Of a stretch of 64,000 nucleotides of DNA, positions 50,745-59,529 are shown piece by piece. This DNA comes from Herbaspirillum rubrisubalbicans. Lineage in GTDB: Bacteria; Pseudomonadota; Gammaproteobacteria; Burkholderiales; Burkholderiaceae_D. Made by a program: the position numbers and the translations under genes. The stretch covers positions 1,488,001 through 1,552,000 of the forward strand of contig NZ_CP024996.1 of assembly GCF_003719195.1 (NCBI RefSeq). The letters run 5' to 3'. Each line of letters begins with the position of its first letter. Position 1 is the stretch's first letter. The notes under the pieces are model-generated. The model searched no databases and had not been told where the DNA came from. It saw only the letters and a list, made by a program, of their open reading frames with translations.

Positions 50745-51387
50745 ATGAAACCTGCCGCTCCCGCCCCCGACCCGTCCGACGACGCCACTTCCTTCGCCAC
50801 CCTCTCGCCCGATACCGTGCTCGATGCCCTCGACGCCCTGGGCCTGTACGGCGATGGCCGGCTGCTGGCCCTGAACAGTTACGAAAACCGCGTCTACCAG
50901 GTCGGCATGGAAGACGGCCCGCCGCTGGTGGCCAAGTTCTACCGTCCCTTGCGCTGGACGGATGAGCAGATCCTGGAAGAACACGCCTTTTCGCAGGAGT
51001 TGGCCGACGAAGAAGTGCCGGTAGTGCCCGCTGTGCGCCTGGACAATGGCGCTACGCTGCACCGTCATGCCGGGTTTCGCTTCGCCGTTTTCCGTCGCCA
51101 CGGTGGCCGCGCCCCCGAGCTGGACGATGCCGACACCCTGGAACGCCTGGGCCGCTTCATCGGCCGCATCCATGCTGTGGGGATGCGCCGCCCCTTTGTC
51201 GCGCGCCCGGCGCTGGACATCGCCACCTTCGGCGAAGAACCACGCGACTGGCTGCTGGCGCATGACTTCATCCCCGCCGAATTGTTGAACGCCTACCGCA
51301 GCACCGTGGACCAGGCGCTGGACGGCGTGCGCCAGTGCTACCAGCGCGCCGGCAACAGCCGTCAGTTGCGCCTGCATGGCGACTGCC
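50745..51387 (+). pseudogene. srkA: 5' part of srkA, interrupted by the island
   Basis: N-terminal 214 codons of stress response kinase A (YihE/RdoA, an APH-like Ser/Thr kinase). The reading matches family text ([47 protein letters not shown]) up to the catalytic loop LRLHGDC, where the HxGN of the active site should follow. At 51388 the sequence becomes unrelated and the frame stops at 51440. The gene is broken before its metal-binding residues and must be inactive. Confidence 0.93.
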
Positions 51388-51455
51388 GGATTGTTATGGG
51401 ATGTCAAGCTACCATAGTTTTGGAGAGCACCTGTCATTGAAGGGGTTTTAAATCG

Positions 51456-51465
51456 TTGTATACAA
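51456..51465. promoter_or_regulatory. Perfect palindrome before the island srkA copy
   Basis: TTGTATACAA lies 4 bp upstream of the TTG that opens the island srkA frame and 46 bp before its GTG. It could be an operator or part of the island end; it resembles the core of the dyad at 22096-22107. Confidence 0.4.
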
Positions 51466-51511
51466 TAAGTTGCAGGCGCCTTTTGCGCTCAACAAATCAA
51501 GTGGCTCTCCT

Positions 51512-52513
51512 GTGGATACCAAACAACTAAGTGCTGAAACTCCCTACGCCGACCTAACGCCTGAGTGCATTTTCACTGCCATTGAAAGCCTTGGGGCCAG
51601 GTGCGATGGCCGCCTCCTTCAACTGAATAGCTTCGAGAATCGGGTCTATCAGGTGTGGACAGAAGATGGGGAGCAATACGTTGTCAAGTTCTATCGCCCG
51701 GGACGCTGGAGTGATGAGGCCATTCTTGAGGAGCATGAGTTCTCACTCGATTTGGCGGAGCAGGAAATTCCGGTTGTTCCCCCATTAAGTTTCAATGCGA
51801 GAACGCTGCATCATTGTGAGGGCCATCGATTTGCGTTATTCACGAAGCGAGGCGGCCGAGCGCCGGAGCTAGATCGAGAGGATACGCTTCAATGGATTGG
51901 GCGCTTCCTCGGCCGCATCCACGCTAAGGGCGCAACTAGAACCTACCAAGTCAGGCCATCTCTCGATATTCAAAGTTTCGGCTTTGACTCTCGAGATTTC
52001 CTCGTTGCAGGCAATTGGCTGCCTGAAGAATTACTGACTGCGTGGGGTAGCGTCGTTGAGCAAGCTCTCGAAGCTGTGAGAACCGCATATCAACGTGCCG
52101 GCGATGTTCGCATGCTGCGACTTCATGGTGACTGCCACGTAGGGAATGTTTTGTGGACCGATGGCGGCCCTCATTTTGTTGATTTTGACGATAGCCGATC
52201 GGGGCCATCTATCCAAGATCTCTGGATGCTGTTGTCGGGTGATGAAATATATGCTCGTACCCAGCTTGCCGCAATTCTTCGTGGCTACGAAACCTTTTCC
52301 GAATTTGATGACCGAGAGCTGTACCTGATTGAAGCGTTGCGCACACTGCGTTTGCTTCATTACAGCGCGTGGATCGCACGTCGTTGGAAAGACCCTGCAT
52401 TCCCGGTCGCGTTTCCCTGGTTCGGTACTGTACGCTACTGGCAGGATCGAATTCTTGAGATTCGGGAGCAGATTGCCAAAATGCAGGAAGCGCCGCTCCG
52501 TCCGGCGAGGTAA
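51512..52513 (+). CDS. Island-borne stress response kinase A (SrkA/YihE homologue)
   Basis: Complete APH-fold kinase of 333 aa from GTG 51512 (or 347 from TTG 51470). The family features that the chromosomal copy lost are here: LRLHGDCHVGNVLW, HFVDFDDSRSGP and the end FPWFGTVRYWQDRILEIREQ. It aligns along its full length with both halves of the broken chromosomal gene but is divergent and AT-richer, so it came with the island rather than by local duplication. It presumably replaces the disrupted kinase, which in E. coli limits stress-induced death by countering MazF and oxidative damage. There is no strong ribosome-binding site. Confidence 0.88.
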   Translation: MDTKQLSAETPYADLTPECIFTAIESLGARCDGRLLQLNSFENRVYQVWTEDGEQYVVKFYRPGRWSDEAILEEHEFSLDLAEQEIPVVPPLSFNARTLHHCEGHRFALFTKRGGRAPELDREDTLQWIGRFLGRIHAKGATRTYQVRPSLDIQSFGFDSRDFLVAGNWLPEELLTAWGSVVEQALEAVRTAYQRAGDVRMLRLHGDCHVGNVLWTDGGPHFVDFDDSRSGPSIQDLWMLLSGDEIYARTQLAAILRGYETFSEFDDRELYLIEALRTLRLLHYSAWIARRWKDPAFPVAFPWFGTVRYWQDRILEIREQIAKMQEAPLRPAR

Positions 52514-52601
52514 GAGGATGCCAACTAAAAGTTCGCTGAATATTTTAGTTTCACAGTAGTTAAGTGATCTATTCGCGTTGACTATTTGAAAGGGAATTCG
52601 A

Positions 52602-53474
52602 TTGAGTAACATCCGCACAATTGACATGCGTTTCATCGACGACGTTTTTGATATGGGCGGCGGTTATGTGTTGGATTTTTCAGATCGCACGTTTGCCGCC
52701 TTCTTTGCAGAAGAACTGAATATCGACATTACTGAGCAGCAGTACTATCGTGACGGGACATCAAAGGCCAAGCGACTCAGATGCTTCCTTCAAATAGTTG
52801 ATAAAGCGACGCTCGTCCAGACGCTAAAAGCACTTTGGGAGTATCGCGAGGGGATCCGTCAGCGGACTAATGAGCCAGACAAGGTAGTAAACGCACATGG
52901 TCGATTTCTGGAATTACTCAATCGTATCCAAGGAACACAACCTGCTGCAGCGCCCATGTCGCCGATAGTTCCGAAGCCTGCGTTTAATCGAGAACTTATT
53001 TTGCAGTTGAAAGAGAGCCTGCTGACAATCGCAGCACTGTCACCACAGTCGCGTGGCTTCGCTTATGAAAAATTTCTGAAGAAACTGTTCGACGCATTTG
53101 GGCTAGAAGCTCGGCAGGCTTTTCGATTACATGGTGAACAAATAGATGGCAGTTTCCAACTGGGTCACGAGACTTATCTGCTGGAAGCCAAGTGGCAAGG
53201 CGCGCCTATCGGCGCTGCCGACCTCCATGTGTTCGAAGGGAAAATTGGGGAGAAAGCGGCGTGGGCTCGTGGCTTGTTCGTCAGCGATAGCGGCTTCACC
53301 GCTGAGGGAATTGCCGCTTTTGGTAGAGGGAAAAGTCTGATTTGCATGAGTGGCTTAGATATCTGCGATTTACTGGATCGAGAGATTCCTCTGAATCAAG
53401 TATTGGAGCGTAAAGTTCGTCACGCTGCTGAAACAGGTGCCCCCTTTGCTCAGGTTCGAGATTTATTCACCTGA
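52602..53474 (+). CDS. Abi-like restriction endonuclease (AbiJ-type N-terminal domain plus PD-(D/E)XK nuclease)
   Basis: 290 aa in two parts. Residues 5-85 (GGGYVLDFSDRTFAAFFAEE, GTSKAKRLRCFLQ, LKALWEYREG) match the small helical domain found at the N-terminus of many abortive-infection proteins (AbiJ-NTD type, from memory). Residues 135-255 form an Mrr-like nuclease: helix RGFAYEKFLKKLFDAFGLEA, D182 in QIDGSF and E195-x-K197 in LLEAKWQG. TTG 52602 has AAGGGA upstream; ATG 52626 is the alternative. Likely a phage-defence effector; the trigger is unknown. Confidence 0.8.
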   Translation: MSNIRTIDMRFIDDVFDMGGGYVLDFSDRTFAAFFAEELNIDITEQQYYRDGTSKAKRLRCFLQIVDKATLVQTLKALWEYREGIRQRTNEPDKVVNAHGRFLELLNRIQGTQPAAAPMSPIVPKPAFNRELILQLKESLLTIAALSPQSRGFAYEKFLKKLFDAFGLEARQAFRLHGEQIDGSFQLGHETYLLEAKWQGAPIGAADLHVFEGKIGEKAAWARGLFVSDSGFTAEGIAAFGRGKSLICMSGLDICDLLDREIPLNQVLERKVRHAAETGAPFAQVRDLFT

Positions 53475-53852
53475 TCATCTCTGTACTTTTATTCGGCTAG
53501 AATGAGGTCACTTCCGCTGGAATCTAGATGTAGACAAACGAAAATTGGATGCAGCCCCTTATATCCGGGAATCTGAGTAGGAATGGATGCGGCGTTCCGT
53601 TCCCAGGCTGGTGCTTGTGATTGAGGACTGGAGGCAGCACTACAATAAGGTTCGTCCTCATTCCAGCTTGAACTACCAGACGCCGGAAGCGTTCAGCAAG
53701 AAAATAGGAAACACTTTATCAACCGAAGCTATTCCAAATTAAACTGGTCCGGAAAAACCGGGCAGATCACTTGAGCGAGATGAAGCGCCACCTCCCTTTT
53801 GAAGGGCTTGAGTCACATCAATTTGATCTTTGCATGACGTATTGGAGGCTTT
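53475..53852. other. Spacer with IS3 remnant and protease promoter region
   Basis: 378 bp between the nuclease and protease genes. It contains the transposase remnant listed separately; the 110 bp after it show no gene but include GGAGG just before the protease start. Confidence 0.6.
53611..53742 (+). pseudogene. C-terminal remnant of an IS3-family transposase
   Basis: 44 codons reading IEDWRQHYNKVRPHSSLNYQ and then TPEAFSKK, the typical end of IS3 OrfB (integrase core C-terminus), closing with TAA. Nothing upstream continues the frame. Shortly after, TGGTCCGG...CCGG may be the old element end. It marks an earlier insertion and deletion in the island. Confidence 0.8.
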
Positions 53853-54776
53853 ATGGATGACGAGAAAAAAAACGCACCCTTGTTCGGATTTCCTTGGAAT
53901 CAAGCGGAAATGGATCGGACTTTCAATCGTGGATTGGTAACGTTAGTGGCATTCGACGACCAAGAGAAAGCTTATGGGATTGGCACTGGCTTTGTGGTCA
54001 GCCACGATGACACGAAAGCCGTGTGCATAACAGCAGCTCATGTCATCACTGAAATTCGAAATATTCAGGCACCACCATTACGCCACGCTCGCTCGGCGCT
54101 TCAGGAGTTTCTGCCTCCGCCGCGAGCTATTGATCTTTCGCGGCAAAAAGTGCGCGCAATATCCATCGACGGGGAGCGCGTTGAGGCGCTGGCCGTAGAG
54201 AACGCCATCGTTGATGAGGCCAGGGATATCGCGATCATTACTGTGGCTTTGCAGAATGACGAGTCCGCATCATTCTTCGATGGTGAGTTTGAAGTAGACG
54301 ATAGCATCCCCCAAAATGGCGCCCTGATCTGTATTCTCAGCTATGGAGATCTCGCGACAGACAATCCTGTCTCCGAGGATGAGTCTTGTCGCCGATTTGT
54401 ATTGAAGCAACGGCCGATCCTACGAGTGGGCACTGTGGTAGAGCATTATCCCAACGGACACCGCCTTTGCAATGGCCCGTGTATTGAGACAACTATACCT
54501 GTCTACTCAGGTATGAGCGGTGGACCTGTCTTCGCGTTTGCCATGGACGGGCCAATACGCCCCATTGGACTGGTTTGTTCTGATCCAGATCTTGACGGAC
54601 CAGATAAAGAGAACCGAACTAAATCGGGTAGTTCTATCGTGGCACTTTTGCCGTGTAGCATTGAGATCAATGAGGCTGGGCAGCGTGTCGGAAAATTTGT
54701 ATTCCCGGATGCCGAGGCCGCAGGAGAAATACGCAATTTGGTACAACCGATCCGCGATAAAGCTGCACCCTGTTGA
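53853..54776 (+). CDS. Trypsin-like serine protease
   Basis: 307-aa chymotrypsin-fold protease without a signal peptide or membrane segment, so probably cytosolic. The triad is H63 (CITAAHVITE), D125 (EARDIAIITV) and S222 (YSGMSGGPVFAF). No PDZ domain follows. GGAGG precedes the ATG. In an island of nucleases it could be a protease-type defence effector or sensor, as trypsin-like proteases occur in several anti-phage systems. The end of the protein lies 25 bp before an IS3 insertion, so the natural C-terminus or a downstream partner may have been lost. Confidence 0.8.
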   Translation: MDDEKKNAPLFGFPWNQAEMDRTFNRGLVTLVAFDDQEKAYGIGTGFVVSHDDTKAVCITAAHVITEIRNIQAPPLRHARSALQEFLPPPRAIDLSRQKVRAISIDGERVEALAVENAIVDEARDIAIITVALQNDESASFFDGEFEVDDSIPQNGALICILSYGDLATDNPVSEDESCRRFVLKQRPILRVGTVVEHYPNGHRLCNGPCIETTIPVYSGMSGGPVFAFAMDGPIRPIGLVCSDPDLDGPDKENRTKSGSSIVALLPCSIEINEAGQRVGKFVFPDAEAAGEIRNLVQPIRDKAAPC

Positions 54777-54881
54777 ATTGCATCGAAAACTGACCCACTT
54801 ATGGAGTGAACCCCTCGGGCTGGACCAAGGCCCGGAGATGAAGTGATACGCTTGTCGAGCCTTCTCAGGAGGAGCGACATC

Positions 54882-55244
54882 ATGGCATCACGAGGTCCAT
54901 ATCGGCGGCACAGCCCGCAATTCAAGATACAGATATGCAGCGATATTCGCAGCGGCAAGATTGGGCGACGCGAGGCGCTCAAGACTCATAACTTGTCGGC
55001 CAATCTCTTGCAGATGTGGCTAGGGCAGTTTGATCGCGGTGAACTGGATGCAGAAGATGCTGCTGCGTCGACGGTTGCAGAGTACGAGGCACATATTGCT
55101 GCGTTGGAACGGAAGGTAGGCCAGCTGACGATGGAGTTGGATCTCCTTAAAAAAACACCTCGGCTACGACTCGTCAGCAACAGCGAGAACTCATCGATCA
55201 TCAGCGGCCCCAAGCTTGCTCCATCCGACGAGGATGCCAAATGA
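54882..55244 (+). CDS. IS3-family transposase OrfA
   Basis: 120-aa helix-turn-helix protein (RRHSPQFKIQICSDIRSGK, LSANLLQMWLGQFDRGEL) with a coiled-coil region EYEAHIAALERKVGQLTMEL. GGAGG precedes ATG 54882. It overlaps orfB by ATGA, and an A7 run near its end can give the OrfAB fusion. Confidence 0.88.
   Translation: MASRGPYRRHSPQFKIQICSDIRSGKIGRREALKTHNLSANLLQMWLGQFDRGELDAEDAAASTVAEYEAHIAALERKVGQLTMELDLLKKTPRLRLVSNSENSSIISGPKLAPSDEDAK
55149..55155 (+). other. A7 slippery site for -1 frameshift in the IS3 element
   Basis: Seven A (codons LLKKT of OrfA). Slipping back one base puts the ribosome into the orfB frame, which is open from there through the orfB start, so a continuous OrfAB transposase results. 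Confidence 0.7.
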
Positions 55245-56041
55245 TCGATCTGCCGCGTAGCACCTACTATTATCAGCCCAGGCCGGCTGCTGCCGCACTC
55301 GGTGATGCTGAGCTGGCCCATCTGATAGAAGACATCCACGATGTATTCCCGGGCTATGGCTATCGTCGAATCACGTTGGAATTGAGGGCACGCGGGCATG
55401 TGGTCAATCACAAGTGCGTAGCCAGGATCATGCGTGAGCACGAAGTATACGGCCATCATCGGCGCAGGTTCAAGCCGGTGGCCGGCTCTGAAACCGACGT
55501 CACCGTCTTTCCTAATCACTATCAGAACATCATTCCAACGGAGCCAGATCGTGTCTGGGTTGCCGATATCACCTACATCCGAATAGCATCCGGCTTTATC
55601 TACCTGGCCGTTGTTTTGGATGCTTGCAGCCGCAAGGTAATCGGCTACGCTTTATCTAAGCGGATCGACACGCCTTTGGCCCTGGCCGCGCTGACGGCCG
55701 CCTACAGAATTCGCAAGCCGGTGCCCGGCACCTGCATTCACCATACGGATCGTGGGTGCCAAAATGCCAGTGCCTTATACCGGGATTCTTTGGAGGAATT
55801 TGGTCTGATAGGATCAATGAATGCTCCAGCCAATCCATATCACAACGCCCAGGCGGAGAGCTTCATGAAGACGCTTAAGGTCGAAGAGGTTTATCTGGCC
55901 GGATATGAGAAATTCGACGACGTGGCAGCGAGACTGCCATATTTCATCGAAGAGATTTACAACGAACGGCGTATGCAATCGGCGCTGGGCTATCAATCAC
56001 CTAACCAGTTCGAAGCACAACTTGCTCGGCAAGCGGCTTAG
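55241..56041 (+). CDS. IS3-family transposase OrfB (integrase catalytic domain)
   Basis: 266-aa rve-type DDE domain: HTH_21 region (DVFPGYGYRRITLEL), first D in RVWVADITYIRIASGFIYL, second D in HHTDRGCQNAS, E in YHNAQAESFMKTLKVEEV. All catalytic residues are present. Normally made as a fusion with OrfA by -1 frameshifting. Confidence 0.92.
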   Translation: MIDLPRSTYYYQPRPAAAALGDAELAHLIEDIHDVFPGYGYRRITLELRARGHVVNHKCVARIMREHEVYGHHRRRFKPVAGSETDVTVFPNHYQNIIPTEPDRVWVADITYIRIASGFIYLAVVLDACSRKVIGYALSKRIDTPLALAALTAAYRIRKPVPGTCIHHTDRGCQNASALYRDSLEEFGLIGSMNAPANPYHNAQAESFMKTLKVEEVYLAGYEKFDDVAARLPYFIEEIYNERRMQSALGYQSPNQFEAQLARQAA

Positions 56042-56086
56042 TTTCTCGACCAACCTTGGTCCAGCCCGAGGGGGGCACTCCATTAA

Positions 56087-56332
56087 GCCAGAAATTTGGA
56101 CAAGCACGAACGAGAACTAGAGGAAGCCTCACCTCTGTGGATTATCCTTTGTACCGGGAAGAAGCGCGAGCATATCGAATTGCTGGAACTGGACAAGTCG
56201 GGCATCCATGTCGCCGAATATCTGACCGCCTTGCCGCCAAGAGGGGTATTGGTGGAGCTACTACAGCAGGCAACGCGACGTGGGCAGTTGCAGACTCAAT
56301 TGGATGCGTCATCCGAAATAGCCACTCTATAG
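56087..56332 (+). pseudogene. C-terminal remnant of a DUF1016/YhcG-type PD-(D/E)XK nuclease
   Basis: 82 open codons beginning right at the IS3 right end. The text PLWIILCTGKKREHIELLEL and GIHVAEYLTALPPRG resembles the tail of DUF1016 (YhcG) nucleases as I remember it. The N-terminal part and start are missing, replaced by the insertion sequence, so the gene is dead. Confidence 0.6.
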
Positions 56333-56395
56333 CCTGCTGGAAGAAACACTGGCTTGGATCGTTGGTTCTAGATGTGGTGAGGTACTTACGCGATG

Positions 56396-57199
56396 TTAAC
56401 GATTGACCGCATCTTCGATAGATGGAATTGGCTCGCCGTAATAATCTCGAATCAGATCTTCTCGGAACGCACGAATGCCTACAATCTGAGCATTGGGAGT
56501 TGCTCCCGGCGGAAGGAAGCAAATGATAGCACCAGCATTCATTCTCTTTTCGTATAGCTCAAGTGTGATAAGAAAAGCTCTCAGTGCAAAGCGAGGAAGT
56601 CCTCGAATCGCCCATTGATTAGGATTGAGGTTTGCATCTCGGAAAATGCGCTCTGCATGCTGCCTTGAAAAGGTAAGAGGGATTAGACGTTCTTTGAATC
56701 CGGGGAAGGCTGTCCCGTAGTGTGATCCAGTAACCTTTCCATCCCGAGTTTCCATAATTATCCAGAATGGCTCACCAGGATAATCTTCATCCGGCAGGGC
56801 AACTGTTTTTAAGCGCTCAGCAAGGAGCTTGTTGAAAGAAGGTAGATCATCGAAGCGGAGCGGAAGTATGTCGTTGTATTTGGCAAATCCTTCTGCACCA
56901 CTTTGGTAGCCGTTTCTTGAAACGACCACTCCCGTAATATTTCCAATATCACGAAGCTTGGATTCGAATTCTTGTATCTGACCTTTTGATACTGGCGTTG
57001 CCCAGTCCTTGCACTCAATGGCAACTCGATGGCGGATTCCCGCCTTGGTGAATTCGTAGTACACATCAATCTCGTGTTGCTCACCTGATTTTCCAGTCAT
57101 GAAAACAGGGTTACCAACGACGACACCTTCGTCCCGCATATTCAGGAGAAAGGTGTAGACCCTCTGAACGTCTTTTTCCAGCGAAGAGCCGGGTTTCAT
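56396..57199 (-). CDS. Mrr-like PD-(D/E)XK restriction endonuclease
   Basis: 267 aa. The N-terminal 120 residues are an Mrr_cat-type nuclease with D45 (EQHEIDVYY), E62-x-K64 (VAIECKDW) and Q near 74-76 (SKGQIQEFE). The C-terminal half is of unknown type and could sense a ligand or modified DNA. The ATG overlaps the stop of the decayed upstream frame as ATGA, showing it was the second gene of a two-gene unit. AT-rich, unlike the chromosome. Confidence 0.82.
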   Translation of the reverse strand: MKPGSSLEKDVQRVYTFLLNMRDEGVVVGNPVFMTGKSGEQHEIDVYYEFTKAGIRHRVAIECKDWATPVSKGQIQEFESKLRDIGNITGVVVSRNGYQSGAEGFAKYNDILPLRFDDLPSFNKLLAERLKTVALPDEDYPGEPFWIIMETRDGKVTGSHYGTAFPGFKERLIPLTFSRQHAERIFRDANLNPNQWAIRGLPRFALRAFLITLELYEKRMNAGAIICFLPPGATPNAQIVGIRAFREDLIRDYYGEPIPSIEDAVNR

Positions 57200-57329
57200 A
57201 TATACATATCCTTAGTGAGTGGCTGTCTGCGCATGGCAACAAAGACTGAACCATCGCTGCCAATGTCCTCTTGATGTGAGCAAATAGGTCGAACCCGTTT
57301 CCAATGACATAGAGCTTGGCAGGTTGCAT
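57196..57329 (-). pseudogene. AbiH-like gene with internal deletion
   Basis: The frame opens with MQPAKLYVIGNGFDL, the diagnostic N-terminus of AbiH abortive-infection proteins, but the expected HHGxxTxY does not follow. Within a few codons another reading frame takes over (DIGSDGSVFVAMRRQ, ending in TGA that overlaps the next gene). About 45 codons remain of what is normally a protein of about 300 aa, so an internal deletion has fused the two ends out of frame. Confidence 0.6.
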
Positions 57330-57336
57330 TGGCCGC

Positions 57337-58188
57337 TTACTTCTTCTTGGCGAGACGTTGGAACTGGGTGGCGGCGAGCACCGCAGAAACCTTTAACGAG
57401 TCCTTGTACTCCGGGTAGCTGGAAACCGTGTCGCAAAAGTAGTTGTGATAGGCGGCGAGCCACGCGAATTTTGAAAAGACTGTTGGGACTGCTACATAGG
57501 CTTTCAGCGCTGATTCGATTTGCTTCTTGTGCAGGCGAAGGGATTTGACATCGAGATACTCTCGATCATCGCCCTCAATAATGCACTCTGACAGATAGTT
57601 CAGGAAATAGCGCCCATCTGGGCCTTTCAGTACATCCTTGAGCTGGGGAGCATTCTCACCGGAGTAGTAGGTGAGGTGCTTCTCCACCAGCCTCATCGTG
57701 TTGTCGCACAAGACGACGACGGGGTTGACGGCTACTTTGTTCTCAAGACGATATGCCTCCAGCAATGCCGCGCCATATACACTGTTCTCGTCCATGAACA
57801 ACTGGTCTACCGCCAGGCCGCCTCGGATGAAGAAGCCTTTCAACGCCATCTGAAACTGATATTCCTTGATGGCCCAAAGAATGAACCCAAACTCAGACTC
57901 CATGTCGTCGCTAAACCGGGGATGGGCCAGTACCACGTTGTCAGTGAATGATTTGAAATAGAGCATTGAATCATCCGTGCTCTCCTTGAATCGGGCGATG
58001 CTCCTGGCGAGAATCTTGTGAAAGCTCTCCAGCAGTTTGTTCCCACTGCCGTCCTTGTAGCTGGCGCGAATCCTCTCCGAGAAGCCCAAGACATCCAGAA
58101 AGGCGCAATAAGACCGCCGATGCACTGGCTTGCTAGCGGAGAAATAGTCAGACTTTTCCTTGTTCTGCTTCTTGTTTGTTTTCATCAT
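57337..58188 (-). CDS. Class III nucleotide cyclase-like protein
   Basis: 283-aa soluble protein with a basic N-terminus. The pattern fits a class III cyclase homology domain: first metal Asp D32 in YCAFLDVLGFSERI, second D83 in KSFTDNVVLA, IRGGLAV (residues 121-127) at the place of the RxGIxxG segment, and GAALLEAYRLENKVA (139-153) at the place of the GxxVNxAARLE helix. Such stand-alone divergent cyclases in defence islands recall the PycC cyclases of Pycsar systems. Activity and product are unproven. It stands just upstream of the AbiH scar and the Mrr-like nuclease on the same strand, so the three may have formed one operon. Confidence 0.68.
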   Translation of the reverse strand: MMKTNKKQNKEKSDYFSASKPVHRRSYCAFLDVLGFSERIRASYKDGSGNKLLESFHKILARSIARFKESTDDSMLYFKSFTDNVVLAHPRFSDDMESEFGFILWAIKEYQFQMALKGFFIRGGLAVDQLFMDENSVYGAALLEAYRLENKVAVNPVVVLCDNTMRLVEKHLTYYSGENAPQLKDVLKGPDGRYFLNYLSECIIEGDDREYLDVKSLRLHKKQIESALKAYVAVPTVFSKFAWLAAYHNYFCDTVSSYPEYKDSLKVSAVLAATQFQRLAKKK

Positions 58189-58475
58189 CGAATCGAAAAA
58201 ACTGTCATGGCTTCTGTAAGTATAGCGTTCGTTTCGCTCAGACAGTTTATTTCATCTTGAAATTCGGATGCCCCCGGCCAAGAAATATAGCCGGTCGCGC
58301 TGTCGTGCTGCGCATCGAGCCACTTGCGGCGTCTCGCCCCATTCAGGCTTCCATCGTTCCCTCGATCCGCTCGGCTGACGCCTCTGACCCGGCTTCTAGA
58401 TCCGGGCCTGCGGGCTTCGCTTGCCGTGCGGTCGGCACAGAGGGAAAGGTTCTACCGTGGTGTCGACGTCGGCTC

Positions 58476-58625
58476 GTCGTCGACCGAATCAATGAGCTTT
58501 TGCGCTATGACTTTCATCGACAAAACAAGCTGCCCGAGCACCATGCACTGAATGATGCCAGGGCGAACTGTTACGCCTTCCGAGAGCTACCTCCCTTAGA
58601 TACTGATGAGCTGGAATGCTCATAA
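58476..58625 (+). pseudogene. Possible C-terminal remnant of a DEDDh-type 3'-5' exonuclease
   Basis: The last 49 codons of an open frame read VVDRINELLRYDF and LPEHHALNDARANCYAFREL; the HHALNDARAN pattern is the final His/Asp motif of DEDDh exonucleases. No N-terminal motifs are found upstream, where the sequence turns GC-rich and frame-shifted. Low-confidence remnant. Confidence 0.45.
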
Positions 58626-58986
58626 GGGGCGATACAGGCTTTGTTGGCATAGGCATATTGCTTCAATAGCGGCGCGCTACTTTTATCGTCGAAGCGGCGT
58701 TATGGCGCATACGTGCAAATGATGGGGCGTTTGAAGTGCGATTAAATTGTGCTTCGAGACGCAAACTGCTGGTGCCATTGTTTGCCTTTGGACGGGGCTT
58801 TTGTTTTTCCTCTATGTGGTGCTAATCGGCGCTACTGGATGGGACAACCATGCTCCAATATTCACTTAAGCGTTCCTCAGTCCTGCGTTACGAAAATTGT
58901 ATGTCAAGAAAATCTCCATCATCAGTGGCATCGGTCAGGTGCTTAGACGCCATACCACCGTGATCAACAATCGGGGAGAAATGCGA
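58626..58986. other. Gene-free stretch in the island
   Basis: 361 bp with no credible open frame, repeat or hairpin. Probably decayed sequence between the exonuclease remnant and the gmtX-like gene. Confidence 0.5.
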
Positions 58987-59379
58987 TCACGAATCGAGTG
59001 TTTTCTTGATCGCGTTGATGAAACCGATATCAAAAAGCTTTCTGCGACGAGAGTTTAGTATCTCGTCGTTAGCGCCTTCAGACCACCCTTCTTGGTTCAA
59101 AAATTCTATTGATATGGCTTGTCTTAGCGCCTGCTTTTCGGTATCTGACAGGCCGATGCTACTCGTCATCTGGACTACTTCGCCTTTCGGTGTGACGTTG
59201 ATGTGGCCTGGTAGGACACGTCGATCAACGATTACGTTAGCGTTCGCCCGAAGTAGTTTGACTTCTCCGCGTAGGCGATCTTTCTCGGCAATGATATGTC
59301 CCAATAGCACCCGCAACGCGGGATCAGAAATTTTCTGGAGTAAATCATTATCGGTCAGCAGACTGTCGCGGGATCGCAT
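58987..59379 (-). pseudogene. 5'-truncated GmtX-like accessory protein of a recombinase trio
   Basis: 130 codons reading LLTDNDLLQKISDPALRVLL, a coiled-coil helix EKDRLRGEVKLLRANANVIV, and EGWSEGANDEILNSRRRKLF near the end. I recognise, from memory, the C-terminal two thirds of GmtX, the small accessory protein of gamma-mobile-trio elements. The N-terminal helix-turn-helix part is missing: the frame runs straight into the srkA 3' fragment at about 59397. The two recombinases of such a trio are not in the window. It is likely inactive, though ATG 59379 could start a short product. Confidence 0.6.
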
Positions 59380-59397
59380 GGCGGTAGAAGACTTCTT

Positions 59398-59529
59398 GCG
59401 CGGCGCTGGAATGATCCCGCCTTCCCGGTGGCCTTTCCCTGGTTCGGCAGCGTGCGCTACTGGCAAGACCGCATCCTCGAATTGCGCGAGCAGGTGGCCT
59501 TGATGCAGGAAGCGCCATTTGCCTGGTAG
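59398..59529 (+). pseudogene. srkA: 3' part of srkA beyond the island
   Basis: 44 codons ARRWNDPAFPVAFPWFG and on to the stop match the C-terminus of SrkA (compare IARRWKDPAFPVAFPWFG in the island copy) and have the high GC of the host. Together with 50745-51387 it shows the original gene. Judged by the island copy, about 80 codons between HGDC and ARRW are absent. Confidence 0.93.

Follow-up and report, generated by a model that had tools for sequence, protein, structure and literature searches.

The idea that a mobile element may carry a homologue of its own target gene is already in print for two other groups of tyrosine-recombinase elements. As far as the available passages on them go, SE-6283 carries a homologue of its target gene, bcp, and in SE elements the integrase end retains the target core and the opposite end receives a 6-bp footprint derived from the donor (PMC10214605). 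The staphylococcal element Tn552-II, in the part of its description cited here, carries a target-gene-like gene, tgl, that possibly rescues the disrupted target (PMC12486829). Here we describe a locus in a 64,000-nucleotide stretch of the Herbaspirillum rubrisubalbicans chromosome (contig NZ_CP024996.1; the whole stretch is called the window below), where the stress kinase gene srkA is interrupted by an insert that brings a complete, divergent srkA with it. We conclude that the insert is a decayed Gamma-Mobile-Trio (GMT) island, and that its clade inserts into srkA while carrying a foreign srkA of its own, a reading to which we give a probability of about 0.83.

The interrupted srkA gene and its insert

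The native srkA gene starts at 50745 and is interrupted at about 51389, directly 3' of the codons for HGDC in the catalytic loop. The features that define the interruption are listed here by window coordinates, with the strand in brackets.

50745..51389 (+): native srkA 5' half, ending in HGDC; matches positions 4-205 of profile NF008738 with 278 bits
51387..51409 (+): srkA-side element end, CGGATTGTTATGGGATGTCAAGC; forms an imperfect inverted repeat with the gmtY-side end of relatives, with the same end in Duganella sp. BJB480, Pseudoduganella sp. DS3 and Herminiimonas contaminans
51456..51465 (no strand): palindrome TTGTATACAA upstream of the element srkA; present in 5 of 5 element-borne copies
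51470..52513 (+): complete srkA of the element; 333 residues from a likely GTG start at 51512
58987..59406 (-): remnant of gmtX (gamma-mobile-trio protein GmtX, NF040692), N-terminal part lost at the junction
59395..59529 (+): native srkA 3' remnant, from ARRW to the stop; the 77 preceding codons are absent

The native 5' part runs into CGGATTGTTATGGGATGTCAAGC and a short read-through to a stop at 51440, and it is 86% identical to the intact srkA of a same-genus genome. Over 42 amino acids, the 3' remnant and the element-borne copy share 83% identity, and the 77 absent native codons correspond to copy residues 209-285 of 331. The element-borne SrkA scored 492 bits against NF008738 (cut-off 194) and shared 57% identity with the native half across 202 amino acids. 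It is intact, with both HGDCH.GN and DFDD kept, and it is the sole complete srkA in the genome of the window. The palindrome in front of it may be a candidate operator or part of a promoter. The initial annotation had described srkA as cut after HGDC and resuming at ARRW, around an AT-rich 8-kb insert whose first gene is a complete, divergent SrkA reading in the same direction, and the sequence bore out each of these points (the GC content of the insert is 50.9%, versus 60.8% and 64.2% in the two flanking stretches). That annotation missed the 77 lost native codons, the element end at about 51387 and the nature of the gene at the right junction, an N-terminally cut gmtX.

The remnant at the right junction matched the GmtX profile with 118 bits (117-118; cut-off 40), over profile positions 81-207 of 207 only. 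Complete loci have the order gmtY-gmtZ-gmtX, with gmtX last. No match to GmtZ was found in the window's genome, and no GmtY match there exceeded the family cut-off, the only hit being a weak generic recombinase match; the element in the window is therefore the remnant of a GMT island and not a complete one. At the right junction the gmtX sequence ends and srkA begins in antisense, with about two bases in common. Most simply, the start of gmtX (the first ~80 residues), gmtZ, gmtY, the gmtY-side end and the 77 srkA codons would have been lost in one deletion that joined gmtX to ARRW. GmtX was recovered from 9 of 399 genomes sampled in the order, 22 of 392 in the family and, with a stricter threshold, 3 of 340 in the class; the window's own genome is shared between these samples. 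Stretches resembling the GmtX N-terminus were also seen in open reading frames of ~480 to 1400 codons near gmtX (G484:C23, G677:C10, G666:C1, G767:C114 and G455:C83), and were repeated in four of these five.

A clade of elements at the srkA catalytic loop

We looked for srkA in 30 GMT loci, 27 of them distinct. An srkA sequence was present in all four loci whose gmtX is 67-85% identical to that of the window, and in none of the remaining loci. Five elements of this clade were found, all of which carry the srkA copy and four of which lie at srkA. In each of the five, the complete foreign srkA is the gene nearest the end opposite gmtY. Since the same split recurs in other genomes, the split in the window is not due to chance.

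The undeleted form of the element was found in Duganella sp. BJB480 (G718), where the order is native 5' half, srkA copy, cargo, gmtX, gmtZ, gmtY and native 3' half. The element ends are 16.6 kb apart, the native halves join at copy residues 207-208, the srkA copy is 89% identical to that of the window, and the recombination module consists of complete GmtY, GmtZ and GmtX, all above the NCBIfam cut-offs. Its cargo (L117, C4:130063-133541) includes genes that by eye resemble a peptidase-containing ABC exporter and its partner, beside small genes. In Herminiimonas contaminans (G536), gmtY adjoins the native 5' half and the copy adjoins the native 3' half, so the element is reversed; its two junctions lie on two contigs, with the srkA copy (74% identical) on the second, and its GmtY and GmtZ are intact. 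A further genome, G145, has the copy (75%) beside a native 3' fragment, again in reverse orientation, with gmtY and gmtZ absent and two stops in gmtX. Finally, the element of Pseudoduganella sp. DS3 (G541) carries an srkA 93% identical to that of the window and a gmtZ with two stops. Judged from these arrangements, the clade element inserts at srkA in either orientation. A circular or viral source was also sought; the junction pattern had no match in a single scan of viral contigs.

The ends of these elements define the target site. The srkA-side end, CGGATTG-TTATNNGATGTCAA, is found in the window, BJB480, DS3 and Herminiimonas contaminans, and the gmtY-side end is a similar sequence, inverted. 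A 7-bp core is kept beside the gmtY end, reading CACGGCG in BJB480, CATTGCG in Herminiimonas contaminans and CACTTCG in DS3. In all three readable cases the core stays at the gmtY end and the opposite side gains CGGATTG. Intact srkA genes from genomes of the same genera read CAC GGC G and CAT TGC G at the site, exactly as the BJB480 and Herminiimonas contaminans cores do, and the empty sites therefore follow directly from these genes, with no sequences to be joined. The srkA site, whose consensus rests on three insertions, is GAYTGC-CAYNNCG-GCAAY, corresponding to codons D-C-H-x-G-N of the catalytic loop (HGDC-H-x-G-N). The initial annotation had proposed a search for other islands at the same HGDC codons, and the three elements with a readable srkA junction proved to lie at those codons. 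Its wider proposal, that the element aims at a conserved motif of the kinase and compensates for the damage with a substitute gene, is supported at the level of comparison between these elements.

DS3 reads GATTGT-CATGGTG at the site in its own srkA, unlike the consensus; this misfit may be the reason why its element lies elsewhere, although DS3 is a single case. An APH-family gene was considered as a spare target in DS3 and rejected, as the element lies just 3' of an intact APH-like gene and not within it. The element-type copies also depart from the target sequence: the consensus was found in 35 of 53 native genes versus 0 of 9 element-type copies, and the glycine codon of the site is GGC in 50 of 53 natives versus 0 of 9 copies. 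It is possible that the copy has been recoded to escape re-insertion. Against recoding, 4 of 16 conserved glycine columns of the copies are without any GGC, and the copies share ancestry.

Phylogeny of the copies and targets of other GMT clades

A tree of 158 rows had one branch that separated 10 GMT-linked SrkA proteins from 34 native rows, three native 5' halves included (SH-aLRT 99; 0 of 500 shuffles came out as low). Five of the 10 GMT labels belong to metagenome proteins, for which the link to GmtX was drawn from an identical length of the longest contig: seven such lengths occurred both among the 119 SrkA proteins that came with one and in the GmtX list of 113, and setting aside the window's genome and one 1,398-base contig, likely a chance match, left five. 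A further 95 proteins without a label fall on this branch. Some of them belong to named genera, Thiomonas and Paludibacterium among them, and may represent native genes of the copy's source lineage.

These results bear on the explanation that the initial annotation had set against its own, an ordinary tandem duplication of host srkA. With unrelated DNA inserted afterwards, such an event would account for two srkA sequences lying adjacent and in the same direction. However, the two are only 57% identical, the window's native half clusters with the same-genus intact gene (the 86% match) and the complete copy with GMT-borne copies of other genera, and the copy is reversed in two relatives. Because the copies group together and apart from the host srkA genes, tandem duplication is excluded for practical purposes.

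When the element SrkA was compared with 392 genomes of the family, eight genomes had matches at 74-100% identity, and all others among the matches listed were at or below 67%. In four of the eight (G621, G700, G761 and G710) the element-type gene is the only srkA above the family cut-off. These four genomes had no GmtX, no GmtZ and only weak generic matches to GmtY, and neither native srkA half was detected in them. Their srkA is at the native locus, because it is flanked by yecA and by the gene that follows srkA in BJB480. Part of the element leader is kept before srkA in three of the four, and the TTGTATACAA palindrome was not found in any of them. The GC content of srkA is 58.7-59.9% in these genomes and 49.6-54.0% for the copies of the window, DS3, BJB480 and Herminiimonas contaminans, with G145 at 60.4%. 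Since the G710 protein is nested among the element-borne copies (support at the nearest nodes varies from 86 to 99), we infer that the likely direction of this takeover was from element to host.

The four genomes are also what would be expected if the copy served as a homology arm or spare target, and the element spread by homologous recombination with the resident srkA instead of site-specific insertion, as they have an element-type srkA at the native locus and no trio. However, the copy shares about 55-65% protein identity with the host genes, which is too distant for efficient homologous recombination. Moreover, the junctions share their codon position, show inverted-repeat ends and retain the 7-bp target core, and the trio is intact in BJB480 and Herminiimonas contaminans. 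We therefore consider spread by homologous recombination very improbable and retain site-specific insertion.

To see how other GMT clades compare, 18 assembled GMT loci were used, BJB480 included as a positive control; 16 of these had a recognisable gmtY. Protein fragments from the 4.5 kb outside gmtY were compared with the element side. A copy of the element's own split target was found in 4 of 15 other-clade loci and in G898, from another family of the class, or 5 of 16 in all. A PA0069-family radical SAM gene is the split target in two related elements, G705 and G748; a glutamate-dehydrogenase-like gene, which passes the Pfam but not the NCBIfam cut-offs, is that of G484; greB is that of G898; and a TMEM175-like gene is the target in G734, where only one native part was found. 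In G705, G748, G484 and G898 both native parts and a complete copy are present, with splits at copy residues 107/109 or 108/109, 148/152 and ~48-54. As a control, 14 of 210 mismatched pairs of flank and interior gave matches at E 1e-4 or better, two of them being the G705/G748 pairs, which share a target, versus 5 of 15 own pairs (BJB480 included). G705 and G748 had E-values that did not improve on those of the best mismatched pairs, and these two cases therefore rest on the full architecture. Thus, the habit of carrying a copy of the target appears, by sequence comparison, in several GMT clades, and its universality would go beyond the evidence.

Three further loci showed related features. 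In G767 (L083), a thymidine kinase-like gene was seen by eye ~100-650 bases before gmtY, between the element end and gmtY, and is possibly a target copy on the gmtY side. Two related GMT elements, in G666 (L090) and G455 (L087), adjoin, outside gmtY, the 5' end of a gene that by eye is glycerol-3-phosphate dehydrogenase-like, and no copy of it was found inside them.

The remaining features of the insert in the window are as follows.

52602..53474 (+): protein with an Mrr-type restriction endonuclease domain
53853..54776 (+): trypsin-like peptidase domain protein, with weak matches to defence-associated proteases
54843..56041 (+): IS3-family transposase pair, a secondary insertion
56396..57199 (-): second protein with an Mrr-type endonuclease domain
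57337..58188 (-): 283-residue protein, with no family match in Pfam, NCBIfam or PADLOC

The first of these genes, directly 3' of the srkA copy, has a 93% identical counterpart directly 3' of the copy in DS3 (L082, 5013-5885), and the remaining cargo of the two elements differs. The srkA copy could itself be ordinary cargo, kept for its own benefit as a stress-tolerance gene or as part of a defence system, with the match to the target a coincidence. The Mrr-type genes beside the copy in the window and DS3 would fit this explanation, as would the presence of the copy in DS3 while its own srkA remains. In the opposite direction, four of the five clade members lie at srkA, elements in other GMT clades contain copies of the different genes that they themselves split, and mismatched pairs gave matches in 12 of 208 cases once both G705/G748 pairs were removed, versus the 5 of 15 own pairs given above. 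Furthermore, the suggestion of the initial annotation that the kinase might belong to the defence cargo found no support, as the copy had no PADLOC match and no other evidence for it was found. Coincidental cargo thus appears unlikely.

Proposed mechanism and comparison with known systems

GmtY and GmtZ match tyrosine recombinase or integrase families. In the mechanism that we propose, they would cut and join the element ends at the 7-bp core, with GmtX assisting. The SrkA brought in, expressed from its own leader, would replace the lost kinase. Owing to this replacement, insertion would cost the host little, whereas loss of the island would leave it without the kinase. In the four related genomes described above, the copy would have become the only srkA, at the native locus. 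The invader probably repairs its own damage: we infer that the copy rescues the lost function and keeps the host fit.

More broadly, GMT islands may be natural disrupt-and-rescue elements, in which the recombinases aim at DNA encoding conserved motifs (the srkA catalytic loop, the radical-SAM iron-sulfur motif of PA0069, a glutamate-dehydrogenase motif, the first helix of a TMEM175-like protein, and greB), with every subclade bearing a divergent version of the gene it targets. In such elements the copy would be poor prey for re-insertion, because it differs from the target sequence; island loss would be costly; and takeover of the locus would eventually follow. We offer this generalization tentatively, as somewhat doubtful in its full extent.

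Several observations weigh against these readings. SrkA is not known to be essential, and the need for rescue is therefore uncertain. CGGATTG (51387-51393 in the window) is constant in 4 of 4 elements, in contrast to the variable, donor-derived footprint of published SE and Tn554-type elements. The DS3 element lies outside srkA despite carrying a copy, and the native srkA of DS3 is intact. In G145, the native 5' half was not found. No target copy was found in 11 of the 16 other-clade loci, three of which have less than 4 kb on the cargo side. Finally, the single deletion in the window is a reconstruction from the junction.

If islands do supply the gene that they break, the cost of landing in conserved genes would be solved, and sites present in nearly every host would become usable. 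This would account for the occurrence of distant srkA copies in bacteria, would make the target of a GMT island predictable from its own gene content, and would help in locating island boundaries where the termini are unclear. The four genomes with an element-type copy as their only srkA point to a possible way for mobile DNA to exchange core genes, in situ, for foreign ones. The disrupt-and-rescue reading, if true, would describe nature's own equivalent of a recoded-rescue gene drive, and a way in which mobile elements replace genes.

Among known systems, the locus is closest to the GMT islands, known here from the NCBIfam names and citing passages. It shares with them the gmtX remnant in the window, the complete trio in BJB480 and a varied cargo that includes nuclease-like genes; it differs in that the window's element has neither GmtY nor GmtZ. 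To what is in print, the present analysis adds the srkA case, several further targets and the takeover genomes, subject to the gap that the defining GMT paper lies outside the comparison; we do not claim that these are absent from print.

The GInt islands with ginABCD, as far as the passages on them extend, are likewise multi-integrase genomic islands with specific insertion sites; they differ in having four core genes and insertions that are mostly intergenic or at gene ends, and those passages mention no island-borne target copy (PMC5385486). The Tn554-type tnpABC elements, including Tn552-II, have a three-gene recombination module, a 7-bp core and tgl, in the portion of the text cited. They differ in being staphylococcal and in their YolD-like target gene, and TnpABC and GmtYZX are likened by description only (PMC12486829). 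The SE elements, to the extent that their description is used here, likewise retain the target core at the integrase-side end, which here is the gmtY end. Their description sets them apart by four core genes, intA-tfp-intB-srap, versus the three of BJB480 (GmtY, GmtZ and GmtX), and they further differ in their 6-bp donor footprint, in contrast to the constant CGGATTG, and in their target. The feature that joins SE-6283 and Tn552-II, a complete homologue of the target inside the element, was found here as well, as srkA in all five elements of the clade and as copies of other targets in 5 of 16 loci from other clades.

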